Virus record (IMG/VR): IMGVR_UViG_3300021956_000084 | Coordinates: 1-22,678 of that record | Direction: 5' to 3' (one strand) | DNA: 22,678 bases | DNA from: a virus | Shown: piece by piece, positions 12,147 to 19,484 of the stretch | Position numbering within the stretch: position 1 is the stretch's first letter | Layout: each line of letters starts with the position of its first letter | Notes under the pieces: model-generated | Database searches by the model: none | What the model was told of the DNA's origin: nothing | Seen by the model: the letters and a program-made list of their open reading frames with translations, nothing else | Translations under genes and position numbers: made by a program

Positions 12147-13151
12147 CTATCGTTGATTAAGTTTGTCTTGTGCGTATCTGCGAATCATCTTCGCACGCTT
12201 TTCGGGATCGTCCCACATACCTGCATCTTTCATGGCTCTGACTTGGTCAGGTGTTAAGGTAAAAGTATTTTTACCGCCACTACTTGCTGCGCTCTCCCGA
12301 CCTGAACTTGTTACAACGTTTTTAGGTCTTCTTGTAGATGGATTAACGCTAGTTTCTACAGCACCACTATAACGGTGCGGTAAATATTTTGCAAGACGAT
12401 TATCGAGTTCTTCCCAATATTCTTGTGTTTTTGGGTTCCAACCCTCTTCGGCCATACCCTGGTCAATAGTTAATGCTATTTTTGAGTCAGGATCACGACC
12501 ATTTGGGTCATACCAAGGATTTTCATCCATCCAATTAGTAGCGTGACGCGTGACTAACGGATCAGGCGCTTGAATGGTTTGTTGTGGAGGTTGAGCAACA
12601 GACTGTCTCTTTAAACCTTCTAAAGATTCGTACTGTTTCTTAGCTTCGTACCACAATTCTTGTGCTTGGGCGAGTAAATCACCGTTGCCAGTCTCTGTGG
12701 CTTCCTTGATTTTCTGTTTTGCATACAAAATACGGGTTTCTTGATCTTCAAGAGCCTTATTTATGCGTGCAATCTCAGAACCTTGTGTTTTTCTCTCGAC
12801 AATCGACAATCTTTCAAGTAATTCTTGGTTTTGTCTCTCTAAGAGATGTAGTTTTGTGTCTTTTTCTGCAGCGACTTGCTTGTGATACTCTTTGCGAGCA
12901 CGTCTTTTTGCTCGTTTAGCCTCACGAACAGCCTCAGCTTCTGCGTCAATTTCGCCACCTTCGGCTAATTCACGTTGTCTTGCTGCTTCATCTGCTTCAT
13001 CTGAGTCTTCTTGTGGCTCAGGTTTAGTTTCTACTTCGTCTTGAACGTCAGGAGACTTAATGTCAGCAGGTAATTCAATAACAGCTGAACCATCTTGCGA
13101 CTCTTGAACGTCAATAATTTCTGCTTCTTGTATTTTATCTTCAGTTTTCAT
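12147..13151 (-). CDS. Probable capsid scaffolding protein
   Basis: A 334-residue, highly charged protein: an acidic, likely disordered N-terminus (residues 1-70), then a long predicted coiled coil (about 75-185; EAVREAKRAKRRARKEYHKQ, LHLLERQNQELLERLSIVER). A Trp-rich middle follows (TNWMDENPWYDPNGRDPDSK). The basic C-terminal helix-turn-helix begins TFTLTPDQVRAMKDAGMW and contains RAKMIRRYAQDKLNQ. Acidic start, central coil and basic C-terminal hook is the layout of scaffolds that bind coat protein through the C-terminus. It lies between the co-chaperonin and head genes. Its ATG overlaps the previous stop by 4 bases (ATGA). No protease domain was seen. Confident as scaffold-like, less so about cleavage or a dual role. 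Confidence 0.8.
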   Translation of the reverse strand: MKTEDKIQEAEIIDVQESQDGSAVIELPADIKSPDVQDEVETKPEPQEDSDEADEAARQRELAEGGEIDAEAEAVREAKRAKRRARKEYHKQVAAEKDTKLHLLERQNQELLERLSIVERKTQGSEIARINKALEDQETRILYAKQKIKEATETGNGDLLAQAQELWYEAKKQYESLEGLKRQSVAQPPQQTIQAPDPLVTRHATNWMDENPWYDPNGRDPDSKIALTIDQGMAEEGWNPKTQEYWEELDNRLAKYLPHRYSGAVETSVNPSTRRPKNVVTSSGRESAASSGGKNTFTLTPDQVRAMKDAGMWDDPEKRAKMIRRYAQDKLNQR

Positions 13152-13582
13152 AGAAATGCCTTCATAGTTAATGGATCACAGGTTACTGTTGCAATAATTT
13201 CGTGGTCATTGAGGATCATAAAGAGTGATGGTTCGTCTTCATCTGACTCACCAGGCACTTTTACTTCCCATCGATCACCGCCCCATTTAGGAACGCGAAT
13301 ATAATCACCAGGTTTTGCCCATACACCTTCGGGCCATGTCTCCATGGTGTCTCGTTTTCTAAATGCAAGCGGACCAACCTCGATTACTTTCGCAACCATG
13401 TTGTTCCATTTTTCAGTTTCTCTCGTCTCTTCAACAAGAATAATCCCGGCACTTGTAGTTTTTTTCTTACTTCTACGCAATTGAACTAATACTCTTGCGC
13501 CTAAAGGCTTTGCACCGGGGTCTACAGCAGGAAACGCATCCTGCAAATCAGCTGAATTACCAGCTACCGTGCTATTGCTCAT
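13148..13582 (-). CDS. Phage GroES-like co-chaperonin
   Basis: The 144-residue protein matches the GroES fold in order: KPLGARVLVQL (about 25-35) is the first strand, and KKTTSAGIILVEET (40-53) is the mobile loop with an IIL hydrophobic tripeptide that would contact GroEL. NMVAKVIEVGP follows, then GVWAKPGDYIRVPKWGGDRW. Near the end, LFMILNDHEIIATVT resembles the closing GroES strands. Host GroES is about 95 residues; the extra length is a 24-residue N-terminal extension, a longer roof segment (71-90) and an acidic insert (GESDEDEPS). It probably works with host GroEL to fold coat or other phage proteins, as T4 gp31 does. It overlaps the preceding gene by 11 bases and the scaffold gene by 4. 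Confidence 0.85.
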   Translation of the reverse strand: MSNSTVAGNSADLQDAFPAVDPGAKPLGARVLVQLRRSKKKTTSAGIILVEETRETEKWNNMVAKVIEVGPLAFRKRDTMETWPEGVWAKPGDYIRVPKWGGDRWEVKVPGESDEDEPSLFMILNDHEIIATVTCDPLTMKAFL

Positions 13583-13766: not shown

Positions 13767-13939
13767 GCGTTATCTTTTTTGATAGCTGACGATTCAAAGT
13801 TGCCATGATCAGTATTAGCTTTCGCCATTGTTGCTGAACCTGACTCTTGGAGTGTTTCGCCATCTAGCCATGCGCCATGCTTAATGCGTTGGTGCATATT
13901 GACTAATTCTCCAGCTTGGTCTTTATCGGTTGTTGCCAT
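13763..13939 (-). CDS. Small hydrophilic protein, unknown (58 aa)
   Basis: Reading the minus strand from ATG at 13939 gives 58 codons, starting MATTDKDQAGELVNMHQRIK and ending SAIKKDNA, with TGA at 13763-13765. A strong TTAGGAGG ribosome site lies 5 bases before the ATG, inside the portal's last codons, and the start overlaps the portal end by 17 bases. The stop overlaps the next ATG as ATGA. Middle residues HGAWLDGETLQESGSATMAK look protein-like and hydrophilic. It fills the only apparent gap in this gene chain. No family recognised; the strong ribosome site argues that it is real. Confidence 0.8.
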   Translation of the reverse strand: MATTDKDQAGELVNMHQRIKHGAWLDGETLQESGSATMAKANTDHGNFESSAIKKDNA

Positions 13940-16463
13940 AATTGCCTCCTAAGTGACGTTGAGTTTCATGTTGCAGTTTTAAAGCAGTCTGCTCCTGCTC
14001 TTTACGCAATTTGATTTCGTCAACAGTAAGTTCTGCTGTCTTCATTCGTTCTTGCGTTAAGTTGTTTTCAGCATTCATCGCAATCTGAACTTGTCTATCT
14101 TTGTCAGTTTCTTGCGTACGAACCTGTAAATCTGCCATCTTGAACTGATTATCCATTTGGTCTTTTTGTGCACGACGTTGTGTCTCAGCCATAGATGCTT
14201 GTAGGATTGCTTGATCAGCAGGATCAATTTGTGGTTGTGGAGCAAATTGAGCCATAATTTGACCAAGTTGTTGTAGAGCTTGGTTAACACCACCGAATAC
14301 TTGTTGTGTATCAAGCTTGACGTGTGAAGACGCAACCGCCATCGCTTTATCAATTTCTTGAGCGACTTTAGACTCTTCGTATTTACCAAGTTTGATATTC
14401 GTACCTATGGTGACGTAACCTTCCATTTGTTGTGTATACCAAAGCATCATGTGTTGCTTAATATGTTCTAATGCTTGTGGAATAAGTTTTGGTGCAATTA
14501 AATTATTGCTGCCTAAGTTTGGATCAGTTGCAAAGTTCAAGTGAGATTGAATATGTGCAAGGTGATCTTGACGTGGATATGCAAACGCTGGTTTACCTAA
14601 AGCCATTGCAGCATTTTCATGTGCAGAGTCTTGTTCCATAGGTTTAGCAATGTTAGGCATAAGCTCATTCACGCCTGGTACTTTCATTTGTTTTAATACA
14701 CGTGATAACACTGCATTCACATCAAACGATTGTGGAAACTGTGTCATCAATTGAAGCACCGCTTGGTTTTGCGCCATACGTTGTGTTTCAGAGAATATGT
14801 GTGGATCTGATACAGGGATCACATCTGAGTTGCGTTTAAAGTCTTCTCGTTGAATTGGAAGTTCTGCAACCACATCACCTTTTTTCTGTTCATCAAGATA
14901 CCAACGATTGATACGTCCAAGTACTTGTAATACTCTGCGTTGTGAATCGTGTAGTCTTGCGTGAATTGCTGAGAAAACTTTTGCGCCTTGTTCAATCAAC
15001 GCTTGTGTTGTACCTACAGGTGCGTTTTGATTAATGTCTTTGATTTTTTCTTCTGATGTTGATACAACACCTTTAGCCGCTGTGTCTAACCATCCAAGTA
15101 ATTGGAAGAGTACTGGTGACGGTGGATTGAATGGCATAGGCATTGCAATCTTACGTACGTCGTCAACACCAGGTGCGCCTTCTATCTCTGTGATTTGCGT
15201 AACTTCGACTTCTTGAGATTGTCCGCTGATCTTAGCGCCTTTAAGTTTAAGCATTGTAGCGCTGTTATTAATATGCGCAGTATCGAGTAAAGCACGTAGG
15301 GCGCCAGTAAGAGCAGCAGATAAACCGCCAATAAGATGAGGTAAGCCAATAGCATAAGCGCCTCTCCAAGGGATGAACTTAAACTCGATAATCCAATCCA
15401 ATTTAGTAAACGTTTCATCGCCTTCCTCCCAGTTTCTGTAAAGTCCTAAAATTTCATTATCAAGCTCATCGATCATCATGACGTAAGGAGCTGATTCACC
15501 TTTAGTGCGTTTGTCATCTTCTAATTCTAAATATGTATAGATGTGGTACACGCGACGTAATCCATCTTCGTCGTCTTGATATTGTTTACCTTCAACCTTG
15601 TTCGTTGCTTTTTCAGGAGCTGATTCTGTAGGCTCCATCGTTGCACGAATAAAATCAACGTCTCTATATAAGCCTCTTGCAATACGTTGTCTAAATTCCC
15701 ACTCAGTAATGTCTTGTACTTCTGTGACGCGTTGTGCTGTGTAGAAGTTAACTGATGCAAAAGGTAAGTAGATATTATCGATAGGTACAAACTCTGCACA
15801 TGGACGCTTTTTCTTTTCGTCATACCAAAGCTTCATGAATTGAGAGCCACCTAATGGTAACTGTGTAAGTAGTTGTTCTTGCTCGTCACGGAACTCTTCA
15901 ATCTGTTCAGTCAATTGCCAGTTCATGTAATCACGTTTGCGCTCTGCAATATCTTGTTTCTCAGGTGTGGTCTCACCTAAAATTTTTGTACGTGTAGGTC
16001 CATCAGGCGGAAACATTTCTTTAATTGCTTGAGCTGCGAAATCTACACAAGCTTCAGCCATGACCGGATGCACAACACGAGATGCGCCCATGAATTGCGC
16101 ACCACCTGGAGCGTCGTCGCCTAATCCCGTACGGCGAATACCCTCTTCATATTGTTTATCTCTTTTCTCACGCGCCTCTTTATCTTTCTTGATAAGATCA
16201 AGGTAACGCATGCCAATCTTTTCTAAGTCGTATAGGTTGACTGTCTCTGCTAAGTTAGAGTAAAAGTCTTCGTCTTCTTGAGGACCTTTAAAGTCTTCCA
16301 TATGAACGATAGCTGATCCATCATCAAGCTCTTCAACATCTGTGTCGTATTGCAATAGATCTAACTCTTCAGATGACTGAGGTTGTTGACTAGATTGGTC
16401 AGGTACTCCTGGTATGTTTCGACCAAACTCAGGATCGATAGGCATTTCGGGATTTAAAGCCAT
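13923..16463 (-). CDS. Portal protein, P22-like long type
   Basis: The 846-residue product has an acidic N-terminus (residues 1-75), then a conserved portal core: GMRYLDLIKKDKEAREKRDK, GASRVVHPVMAEACVDFAAQ, IKEMFPPDGPTRTKI, and LPLGGSQFMKLWYDEKKKRP with FVPIDNIYLPF. Later KLDWIIEFKFIPWRGAYAIG, LIGGLSAALTGALRALLDTA and TSEEKIKDINQNAPVGTTQA mark the crown and tunnel region of the long podophage portals. The C-terminal 110 residues form a Gln/Glu/Lys-rich coiled coil (MAETQRRAQKDQMDNQFKMA), like the barrel of P22-type portals. It forms the dodecameric DNA gate at one capsid vertex and is the docking site for the terminase. An AAAGGA site about 11 bases upstream is modest. Placed three genes after TerL with one large gene between. 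Confidence 0.9.
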   Translation of the reverse strand: MALNPEMPIDPEFGRNIPGVPDQSSQQPQSSEELDLLQYDTDVEELDDGSAIVHMEDFKGPQEDEDFYSNLAETVNLYDLEKIGMRYLDLIKKDKEAREKRDKQYEEGIRRTGLGDDAPGGAQFMGASRVVHPVMAEACVDFAAQAIKEMFPPDGPTRTKILGETTPEKQDIAERKRDYMNWQLTEQIEEFRDEQEQLLTQLPLGGSQFMKLWYDEKKKRPCAEFVPIDNIYLPFASVNFYTAQRVTEVQDITEWEFRQRIARGLYRDVDFIRATMEPTESAPEKATNKVEGKQYQDDEDGLRRVYHIYTYLELEDDKRTKGESAPYVMMIDELDNEILGLYRNWEEGDETFTKLDWIIEFKFIPWRGAYAIGLPHLIGGLSAALTGALRALLDTAHINNSATMLKLKGAKISGQSQEVEVTQITEIEGAPGVDDVRKIAMPMPFNPPSPVLFQLLGWLDTAAKGVVSTSEEKIKDINQNAPVGTTQALIEQGAKVFSAIHARLHDSQRRVLQVLGRINRWYLDEQKKGDVVAELPIQREDFKRNSDVIPVSDPHIFSETQRMAQNQAVLQLMTQFPQSFDVNAVLSRVLKQMKVPGVNELMPNIAKPMEQDSAHENAAMALGKPAFAYPRQDHLAHIQSHLNFATDPNLGSNNLIAPKLIPQALEHIKQHMMLWYTQQMEGYVTIGTNIKLGKYEESKVAQEIDKAMAVASSHVKLDTQQVFGGVNQALQQLGQIMAQFAPQPQIDPADQAILQASMAETQRRAQKDQMDNQFKMADLQVRTQETDKDRQVQIAMNAENNLTQERMKTAELTVDEIKLRKEQEQTALKLQHETQRHLGGNYGNNR

Positions 16464-16496
16464 GGTAAAAATTTCCTTTTATTTTTAGTTAAACTT

Positions 16497-16505
16497 TGAT
16501 ATAAT
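16497..16505 (+). promoter_or_regulatory. Extended -10 promoter for the plus-strand gene
   Basis: The plus strand reads TGATATAAT, a perfect extended -10 (TG, one base, TATAAT). The -35 position (about 16477-16482, ttttat) has little match, which extended -10 promoters tolerate. Transcription would start near 16512, on top of the AAGGAGGG ribosome site, leaving a leader of only about 11 bases. It points against all neighbouring genes. Confidence 0.6.
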
Positions 16506-16522
16506 TCCGTTAAGGAGGGCAT

Positions 16523-16714
16523 ATGCCATACAAAACTAGCAAAACCATTGATGGTTTGATTACTCACTACGGTAAATGGACGAAGAAGGAAGAAGACGCC
16601 TTCTACGAGATATTTAGTTTCGATGATTGGAAGGGATCTCATGGACTTATTCCTCACGCTTCTTTGGAGCAAGTGGAAGAGCAAAAGCCGCAGGTAGATA
16701 CTCTTTCGACTTAA
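16523..16714 (+). CDS. Lone plus-strand small protein, unknown (63 aa)
   Basis: The only convincing plus-strand gene in the window. It begins MPYKTSKTIDGLITHYGKWT, followed by KKEEDAFYEIFSFDDWKGSH and a Glu/Gln-rich end. The mix of aromatic and charged residues looks like a small soluble protein, with no membrane segment or signal peptide. AAGGAGGG ends 3 bases before the ATG, and an extended -10 (TGATATAAT) stands just upstream. The gene fills the 183-base gap between the portal and the 834-residue gene, and its last 68 bases overlap the 3' end of that gene on the opposite strand. I recognise no family. It could be a moron or an early regulator made separately from the late operon; this is inference. 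Confidence 0.68.
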   Translation: MPYKTSKTIDGLITHYGKWTKKEEDAFYEIFSFDDWKGSHGLIPHASLEQVEEQKPQVDTLST

Positions 16715-19151
16715 GCGCTTTCTCAAGACCACTCAAGCCTTCTTTGGCTACGATTTCTCGTGCGCGCAATACATCTTTACGTGGGGCACCGACGCCGTAT
16801 TTAATTGAGGCTTCGATGTCACGCTTATTCATTTTTTCTAACTGAGCAGCAAGTTGTGGGTCAGCCTCTAATAATCGTTTGACTACATCAGGTGATGCGC
16901 CAGTCGCTTCTTTTAAGTAATCAAATAGCTGTTGTGTTGCTTTGCCTGAGCCTTCATATTGCTTACCAAACACATCTTCAAAGCCTTTGTATCCACCCTC
17001 TGTACGTACGCGCTGCATAGAGCCAATCTTTTCAGGTACTGCTTCGTGGAGTTTGTCTTTGAATCCTTCTTTCAACATCTTGGCTAAGTCTTGTCCTGAC
17101 TTCACTGCGTCATTAAATCCAAGTAAGACACCGTCTTTGCCTAAGTCAATCACGCCATTAAAGCCATGCTCATTCGCTGTCTTAGTCAACGTTTGCATTT
17201 CGTTTTCTGTTAATGGCTTGTTAAGTTTTAAGTGTAATGATGTGGATGGTGTTACGGCGCCAGGCACTGGTTTAATCCAAGGGGATGCGCCTTGTACATC
17301 AAAGTATCCACGTAATGCTGACATAGCATCCATGAGTGATTTAGATTGTGGTTGTACGACTGGGCCTTCTTTGCCGGGCGTCATACCTACTAATGATCTT
17401 GATTGTGATTGCGGATTGAATTCTGTAATGCCAGTCACTGGGTTTGTATATGACCCTAAACCTTCTTGTGTCTTGCCTGTAAGTAATCCATGGCGTGCGC
17501 CCATTTTCTGACTGAGTATGTCTTTGCCATATTGATCTGCCCAATTAGCAGCCTTTGAATATTCCTCTTTTAAATTAAGTGGAAGCTTCTCAATGTCTGC
17601 AAGGTGTCCTGATGTTGTAAAAGGTATTTGCTCATAGGTATTGAATGCTGTGTATTTCGGAGCGCCTTCTAAATAAGTTTTGTTAGCCTCCGCGAATGCA
17701 GACTCTAGTGTTGGGAATCTGCCTGGGCTACTCTTCATGAGTGACTGTGCTTTTTGTAATACCCAAGGTGCTGCTTGAATCTCTTCAGGGTTCCAGTTTT
17801 CTTTGCCTGCCAATCCTTTTTTGTTAGCACGCTCTGTCGCTAGAATAGTTTCGGCATCTAGGAATGCATGCTCTTGTGGTGATAGGCCGCGGGTAATAGG
17901 TACTGCCTTGCCTGTCTCTTTATCAATCTGTGTGTATCCAAAATTTCGTGCGTGACGGAAATCGTTTACGCCTGTTGATCCGATACCTTGTGCAGGGTCG
18001 ATGTACTTAGCATAGATGTCTGTCTTCTGACCAAGCGGGATGTCTTTGCCTTCCTCTGCTGCTTTGTAATAACGTGAAGCTTGTGGGCCCGTACGAACGA
18101 TAGGTTGTTTAGCGCCTGCCTCTAATGCGTTATGTGCTTGCAATGTAAAGCCTAGGTTTGATATAGGATCAGCTTGTGCTGAGAACAATGCGTTAGCTCT
18201 TGATAGTTCGCGTGATGCTTCGGGGGTTGGCGTATATTCTTTGTGGAATTGTTGAGCGCGTTCATACCAGTCACCGCCTAATGCGCCTTCCTCTACCATC
18301 TTGTCGTATTCAGAACGTAGCTTGTTGATGTCACGCATAGACTTAACGCCACGTGGTGCGCCTACGAATTGTCCGCTAGGGTCTTGCTTAAGGTGTACGC
18401 CTTTCTCTGCTAATGGTACGGCTTCTTCATAAGGCATATGACGAAGGTCACCTTGGATAGCGCCTTTCTTTGTATACTTAGCTGCACGCTTGCCTAATAT
18501 GTTGGCCACGTTGCCTTCGATAGATCCTATAGCCATAGGGCCGAAGTTAAGTGCTACGTCCATCATCTCTTTCTCGGTCATTGGCTTTGCTGGTTTCTTT
18601 AGGTCTTCAATGATCTTGTTACCTTCTCCACGCATGATGCGGGCAAGTGGTGCGTCACCTTTGAGCCACTCATCAAACGCTACACTTAATGGGGATGACT
18701 CGTCTACGAATGATGTTGCCTTGCCACCGTCTGCCATCTTAGGTGTTAGGTCTTTAAATGGGGATTGGTGCATATGCGCAAGCTTACGTGCTTCGGCTTC
18801 TGCTTTGGCTTTCACTGCTTTAACTAGCGGATCATCGTCATCACGAAGTCCGGCCTCATAATCTTTAACAACTTCTATCTCTTCAGGAGTTATACCCTTG
18901 TATAACATTGGATGGAATAGCTGACCTTTCTCGCCGCCTAAGGATAGCTCAGTCATCTTGTCACCGGTCAAGGTTGGAACCTCACCAGCCCAGCCAGTAG
19001 TCTTTGGCATCATCTCGCCGCCATAACCTTGAGGCGTAGGGAAAGCTCTTAGTCCATAAGGATTGGGATAGTCACCATAGCCCATGCCACCTTCACGTGT
19101 AGGCTTGGACATAAACTCTGAGACTCTAAACTGATTATTTAAATCGTCCAT
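16647..19151 (-). CDS. Large virion-associated protein, probably ejected; unknown (834 aa)
   Basis: A long hydrophilic protein between terminase and portal. Residues 30-130 (NPYGLRAFPTPQGYG, TELSLGGEKGQ, then KAEAEARKLAHMHQSPF) resemble an N-terminal module seen in multi-domain phage virion proteins. Residues 290-420 (GGDWYERAQQFHKEY, LFSAQADPISNLGFTLQAHN, LGQKTDIYAKYIDP, GVNDFRHARNFGYT) followed by SPQEHAFLDAETILATERAN and NPEEIQAAPWVLQKAQSL form a helical unit that I have seen in phage polyvalent-type proteins. It loosely recalls helix-hairpin-helix DNA-binding folds. The C-terminal 150 residues are helical. No lysozyme, protease or membrane helix was seen. Ejection with the DNA is inference. 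AAGGA precedes the ATG; the 5' end overlaps the DUF1289-like gene by 17 bases. Confidence 0.72.
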   Translation of the reverse strand: MDDLNNQFRVSEFMSKPTREGGMGYGDYPNPYGLRAFPTPQGYGGEMMPKTTGWAGEVPTLTGDKMTELSLGGEKGQLFHPMLYKGITPEEIEVVKDYEAGLRDDDDPLVKAVKAKAEAEARKLAHMHQSPFKDLTPKMADGGKATSFVDESSPLSVAFDEWLKGDAPLARIMRGEGNKIIEDLKKPAKPMTEKEMMDVALNFGPMAIGSIEGNVANILGKRAAKYTKKGAIQGDLRHMPYEEAVPLAEKGVHLKQDPSGQFVGAPRGVKSMRDINKLRSEYDKMVEEGALGGDWYERAQQFHKEYTPTPEASRELSRANALFSAQADPISNLGFTLQAHNALEAGAKQPIVRTGPQASRYYKAAEEGKDIPLGQKTDIYAKYIDPAQGIGSTGVNDFRHARNFGYTQIDKETGKAVPITRGLSPQEHAFLDAETILATERANKKGLAGKENWNPEEIQAAPWVLQKAQSLMKSSPGRFPTLESAFAEANKTYLEGAPKYTAFNTYEQIPFTTSGHLADIEKLPLNLKEEYSKAANWADQYGKDILSQKMGARHGLLTGKTQEGLGSYTNPVTGITEFNPQSQSRSLVGMTPGKEGPVVQPQSKSLMDAMSALRGYFDVQGASPWIKPVPGAVTPSTSLHLKLNKPLTENEMQTLTKTANEHGFNGVIDLGKDGVLLGFNDAVKSGQDLAKMLKEGFKDKLHEAVPEKIGSMQRVRTEGGYKGFEDVFGKQYEGSGKATQQLFDYLKEATGASPDVVKRLLEADPQLAAQLEKMNKRDIEASIKYGVGAPRKDVLRAREIVAKEGLSGLEKALKSKEYLPAAFALPLAPKKREE

Positions 19152-19317
19152 TACTTTCCTTGATGCGTTTCATTACCGCTTTGCGTTGTGCTGGTGTGTA
19201 ATCTAACCATCCTGCTATCTCGTCCTCTGTTCGTTTGCATGTCTTGCATGTCTGTGTCTTGACATCAAGGTTGCATATGTTCTTGCACGGTGTCTTTATA
19301 TTTCCCATTCTTGCCAT
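19135..19317 (-). CDS. DUF1289-like small Cys-motif protein
   Basis: A 60-residue protein with TPCKNICNLDVKTQTCKTCK (about residues 9-28) followed by RTEDEIAGWLDYTPAQRKAV. The spacing C-x3-C ... C-x2-C and the R-x-x-x-EI-x-x-W motif are hallmarks of DUF1289, a small family widespread in proteobacteria and thought to bind a metal or iron-sulfur centre; its function is not established. The start could be the second Met, 3 codons in; neither has a good ribosome site, so coupling to the upstream frame is likely. It overlaps the 834-residue gene by 17 bases. A bacterial-type protein inside the packaging operon is unusual and may be an acquired accessory gene. Confidence 0.85.
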   Translation of the reverse strand: MARMGNIKTPCKNICNLDVKTQTCKTCKRTEDEIAGWLDYTPAQRKAVMKRIKESNGRFK

Positions 19318-19484
19318 TGTTCAGTCTTTATACCGTGTCTCTGATTCCATCGTTCTTCATGCCACCACCACAACCTTCTGTATCGTCTTATGCGATCATG
19401 TCGTCTAGTGTTAGCGCTTATTGATCTTGTCTTTATGCGCCGTCTTCTTAACCCAAACAGATCTATTGTTCTGTAAACAATCAT
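19296..19484 (-). CDS. Possible basic Arg/Trp-rich small protein (62 aa)
   Basis: The frame starts with an ATG that overlaps the terminase stop (ATGA) and runs MIVYRTIDLFGLRRRRIKTR, an Arg-dense middle, then WWWHEERWNQRHGIKTEQWQ and EWEI. It overlaps the DUF1289-like gene by 22 bases. In favour: coupling overlaps at both ends and a plausible amphipathic end (RHGIKTEQWQEWE). Against: no ribosome site of its own and a very high Arg content that could come from reading a wrong frame. Another frame through 19420-19500 encodes a hydrophilic run without a start codon. If real it could bind nucleic acid. Confidence is limited. Confidence 0.48.
   Translation of the reverse strand: MIVYRTIDLFGLRRRRIKTRSISANTRRHDRIRRYRRLWWWHEERWNQRHGIKTEQWQEWEI

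Follow-up and report, generated by a model that had tools for sequence, protein, structure and literature searches.

A probable moron-type accessory gene with a predicted promoter of its own in a variable slot beside the portal gene of an uncultured phage

A 63-codon frame running antisense to the late operon of an uncultured phage is, with a probability of roughly three in four, a genuine moron-type accessory gene that encodes a protein, equipped with its own promoter and seated in an exchange slot between a large gene and the portal gene. The frame lies in IMG/VR virus record IMGVR_UViG_3300021956_000084, of which the whole stretch of 22,678 nt was analyzed (the window). Its features are collected in Table 1. 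The first-pass annotation of this DNA had placed a perfect extended -10 element, AAGGAGGG and a 63-codon frame on the plus strand at 16497-16714, between the 834-aa gene and the portal gene, with an antisense overlap of 68 bases into the former; all of these were found there, the overlap to the base. It had also described a lone plus-strand gene and, in fact, every other gene call in the window is on the minus strand.

Table 1. Features at and around the large gene/portal junction of the window
Feature	Position	Strand	Remark
Perfect extended -10 promoter element TGATATAAT	16497..16505	+	Sole perfect match in the window
Shine-Dalgarno AAGGAGGG	16512..16519	+	Predicted transcription start is its first base; 11-nt leader
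63-codon accessory gene, probably moron-type	16523..16714	+	Without detectable homologue; slot and orientation match the small antisense genes of relatives
Large gene/portal gap, 183 nt (insertion slot)	16464..16646	.	In relatives mostly -8 to 36 nt; sister L174 has 12 nt
Convergent 68-nt overlap between the 63-codon gene and the large-gene 3' end	16647..16714		
834-aa gene in the variable terminase-portal slot	16647..19151	-	Relatives carry ART-PolyVal or PcfJ proteins there
Portal protein, phrog_1216	13923..16463	-	Comparison anchor

Predicted promoter and ribosome-binding site of the 63-codon frame

Counting both strands, TGNTATAAT is present once in the window, at TGATATAAT, and since 1.33 perfect extended -10 matches are expected in a sequence of this kind, the single occurrence alone is not rare. 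The pairing of AAGGAGG with an ATG was likewise observed once, formed by AAGGAGGG and the ATG at 16523, with 0.20 expected. Simulation of 200,000 first-order Markov sequences matched to the region gave a 63-codon ATG-initiated ORF in 0.6%, TGNTATAAT in 0.4% and AGGAGG-ATG in 0.8% of them, and the ordered chain of promoter, Shine-Dalgarno and ATG in 0 of the 200,000. The best -35 is the weak TTTATT (3/6), which makes this an extended -10 promoter, and it is absent from the list returned by a standard two-hexamer promoter scan.

Transcription is predicted to start at 16512, a position set by its spacing of 7 nt past the -10 hexamer and coinciding with the first A of AAGGAGGG. The earlier claim of an almost leaderless message beginning on the ribosome site is thereby upheld as to the start, but the leader of 11 nt is short rather than leaderless. 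No terminator-like site was found on either strand at 16400-19400, hence no intrinsic terminator downstream of the 63-codon gene within that range, and the transcript may for this reason have an antisense effect on the large gene.

Occupancy of the portal junction in relatives

Portal relatives were drawn from IMG/VR with three portal queries and one family A protein query, and redundancy among junctions was removed by exact identity over 400 nt only, with near-duplicates remaining. Among the 104 distinct junctions, a set that the loci from the family A query entered because the gene is present in them, 23 including the window contain, in the same place and orientation, a small antisense gene encoding 63-123 aa (starts chosen by inspection), while 81 hold none. 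The synteny comparison that had been proposed in the first-pass annotation thus yielded 22 other distinct junctions with such a gene. The insertion expected of a moron is seen in the gap, which measures 183 nt in the window versus 12 nt in L174 and -8 to 36 nt in 79 of the 81 unoccupied junctions, the remaining two having 68 and 360 nt. L174 carries a large gene 53% identical to that of the window over the last 256 residues and has no antisense gene at its junction. The other moron trait, differing genes of neither structural nor lysis function at one site, is seen as well in that the slot is mostly empty and otherwise filled with dissimilar genes. Families A, A', B and C together with the occupant of L211 form a loosely related set (alignment A3), from which the occupants of the window, L162 and L213 appear separate. 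The small genes of L211 (3576-3929), L213 (3728-3937) and L162 (3644-3880) lie antisense in the same slot on the minus strand of their records; judged by eye, those of L213 and L162 do not resemble the main family.

Presence of the antisense gene requires 16 changes on the portal tree, at least 11 of them forced by branches that a quick method supported well. Within one tight clade whose portals are about 98% identical, L067 carries a family C gene, L072 and L171 carry family A genes, and L064 and L103 carry none. Occupancy tracks the C-terminal type of the large gene, with 20 of 24 loci occupied for one type (L229 having been added to the set) versus 0 of 62 for the commonest type. As many as 221 nt at the large-gene 3' end are shared with the occupants, and for this reason they probably move together with the large gene. 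No additional copy of an A/B/C-type gene was found elsewhere in 12 long relatives, and no antisense gene is annotated at the junction in the cultured phages with related portals (Caulobacter RW, Roseobacter CRP-902, Pelagibacter HTVC027P, Planktothrix Pag-Yong1 and DSL-LC04). Three matches were found in MAG contigs, which name differing phyla or classes and so give no consistent host.

Predicted promoters of the occupants

A TANNNT hexamer ends 6-7 nt 5' of the ATG in 17 of the 23 occupants, and the TG is present in addition in 13, against 0.3 expected from shuffles. Related sequences contribute to both counts, and in the remaining six the hexamer was picked by eye. With this spacing, transcription of most occupants would start on or beside the start codon, and leaderless mRNAs are therefore predicted. 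The hexamer at this distance was observed in L011, L014, L028, L057, L069, L070, L072, L074, L090, L091, L092, L111, L171, L220, L226, L228 and L229. Short leaders are found instead in the window, L067 and L071, with a clear Shine-Dalgarno in the window and L067. In families A, B and C, a -35-like TTGCCA or a one-base variant of it overlaps the portal start region at a spacing of 17-18 nt from the antisense -10. The portal start (ATGGCAA), read as its reverse complement, gives TTGCCA, which matches the -35 consensus at 5 of 6 positions, as seen in L057, L072, L228 and others. Searches of open-licence papers found none that describes leaderless antisense genes within late operons.

Coding strand and alternative explanations

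Relatives also carry sense ORFs in the gap, which made a test of the strand necessary. Over the first 51 codons of seven family A members, dN/dS was 0.14 for the antisense frame, which is free of stops, and 1.36 for the opposing sense ORF, which has stops in two of the seven; the sole other frame with a low value (0.27) carries stops in all seven. Purifying selection acts in the antisense frame alone and, therefore, the antisense strand is the coding strand in family A. By its position, the plus strand is probably the coding one in the window as well.

The same selection on the antisense protein speaks against an antisense regulatory RNA which would pair with the large-gene mRNA at its 3' end and lower expression of that gene, the ORF being incidental. 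Such an RNA would suit a transcript antisense to the large gene with no terminator to stop it, the inclusion of the antisense RNA sar in the P22 ant moron (PMC2629481), and the association of one large-gene C-terminal type with an antisense gene. However, the window has a full ORF preceded by a consensus Shine-Dalgarno at the correct distance, and the sequences of the occupants differ while their place and orientation persist, which leaves this explanation quite unlikely.

The minus strand is also open, at 16454-16732, and could encode a 62-aa operon gene from an ATG at 16642 to 16454, of which the plus-strand ORF would be a shadow. This frame directly follows the stop of the large gene and shares 10 nt with the portal start, and sense ORFs of 40-61 aa are found in the gap of relatives too; against it, the sense ORF of family A evolves as given above and is broken in several members where the antisense frame stays open, and in the window merely GAGG is found, 9 nt before its ATG. 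Its codon score is -0.05, compared with 0.068 per codon for the 63-codon frame, itself weakly gene-like relative to the genes at 0.305 ± 0.149. Codon usage alone separates the strands poorly, and it was rejected as decisive evidence because antisense shadow frames score alike. A coding minus strand is very unlikely on these grounds.

The search of the 63-aa product against viromes that the first-pass annotation had proposed returned no relative in IMG/VR or phage records; Pfam, PHROGs, 84,980 bacterial and archaeal genomes and the 12 long relatives likewise held no homologue. Because the product lacks a detectable relative, the evidence for the gene comes from its place. Its single-sequence structure prediction is poor (pLDDT 55). 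Family A is predicted at pLDDT 77, and its model has no PDB match at E<=0.001, with weak matches to small uncharacterised phage proteins. The absence of a homologue, the shortness and the weak codon bias would all agree with an open frame and a promoter match arisen by chance in non-coding filler, an explanation no more probable than a coding minus strand in view of the ordered chain that was missing from every simulated sequence and the same-strand genes that fill the slot in the other 22 junctions. It is extremely unlikely that the product belongs, in strongly diverged or truncated form, to the family of the other occupants (W-V...EEA..H...LN domain), since, for all that slot, strand and promoter position are in common, the match to the A3 profile has an hhalign probability of 0.2% and the shorter window protein aligns, weakly, over a 15-residue stretch alone.

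Proposed expression and role

The preferred reading, an independently expressed accessory gene, agrees with the earlier suggestion of a moron-type gene read apart from the minus-strand operon, and the comparison favors it through the occupancy of the slot, the empty junction of L174, the selection in family A and the -10-like hexamers of relatives. The extended -10 and Shine-Dalgarno on the gene's own strand, together with those hexamers, would fit independent expression. It is proposed that host sigma-70 polymerase would read the gene from the extended -10 at 16497, and that the 11-nt leader, because it begins on the Shine-Dalgarno, would give a short-led and efficiently translated message. 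From its orientation, expression would occur mainly before late transcription and be occluded later by oncoming polymerases. The most likely role is that of a small cytoplasmic effector acting early against the host or competing phages. That the window's own frame is translated, and its timing and role, we infer.

Expression from a prophage to the benefit of the lysogen is typical of morons and not required of them. Here it looks unlikely, because neither tyrosine nor serine integrases were found in the 12 long relatives, records whose completeness is not established, the window itself being a fragment. A more elaborate model would make this a dedicated swap slot whose small antisense genes, leaderless for the most part, are transcribed by host polymerase ahead of the late phase, in part from the portal-start -35, and are tied to a polyvalent ADP-ribosyltransferase-type neighbour, for example as an immunity or counter-defence partner; taken as a whole, this model is unlikely.

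Relation to known systems

Under the operational definition of a moron (PMC2629481), insertion and variable content are both observed here, and independent expression is suggested by the sequence. Two close precedents, pid and Tab, make the architecture already known, and the 63-codon gene would accordingly be a new example of a known gene type. The pid gene of P22 is an 86-aa ORFan moron (PMC3573128) that is similarly small, antisense and within the late operon. It differs in having a 3' Rho-independent terminator, an accompaniment that is not part of the moron definition used here, and in its demonstrated effect, the derepression of host dgo, whereas no terminator-like site was found at 16400-19400 around the present gene. 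Tab of Pseudomonas phage JBD26, of 83 aa (PMC10884400), is likewise small, has a promoter of its own and runs against the direction of the late operon, among packaging genes; the slot described here lies instead between the large gene and the portal gene, in phages whose long relatives are without integrases. The ant moron slot of P22-like phages (PMC2629481) resembles it as one fixed late-operon position with differing accessory sets or none, but often holds several genes, adjoins the tailspike gene and belongs to temperate phages. Small overlapping genes on opposite strands are also known from olg1/gene 10 of phage Fc02 (PMC9936078), there in a lysis-lysogeny control region and with measured exclusion activity. 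What is less usual here is that leaderless starts are predicted and that a single slot is fixed in phages that apparently lack integrases.

A well-delimited accessory-gene slot is thereby described for a widespread group of uncultured phages, and it is unusual in two respects: every occupant runs antisense to the operon, and for the majority a leaderless message is predicted. Should these genes target hosts or competing phages, the slot would constitute a catalogue of small effectors that could be collected by reading the portal junction.

Neighbouring genes

The large gene beside the slot scores for an ART-PolyVal domain in three occupied relatives, above the Pfam cut-off in L072 and L028 and below it in L067, and PcfJ in one unoccupied relative; large genes with ART-PolyVal or PcfJ fit the class of polyvalent proteins (PMC5512222). 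The 834-aa protein of the window itself has no Pfam hit. In the terminase-portal interval of relatives (L001, L028, L067 and L072), this large gene is hypervariable. Two further minus-strand genes were noted in the window: a GroES-like co-chaperonin gene at 13148-13582, adjoining the head genes, and a small DUF1289 gene at 19135-19317, between the terminase and the large gene.
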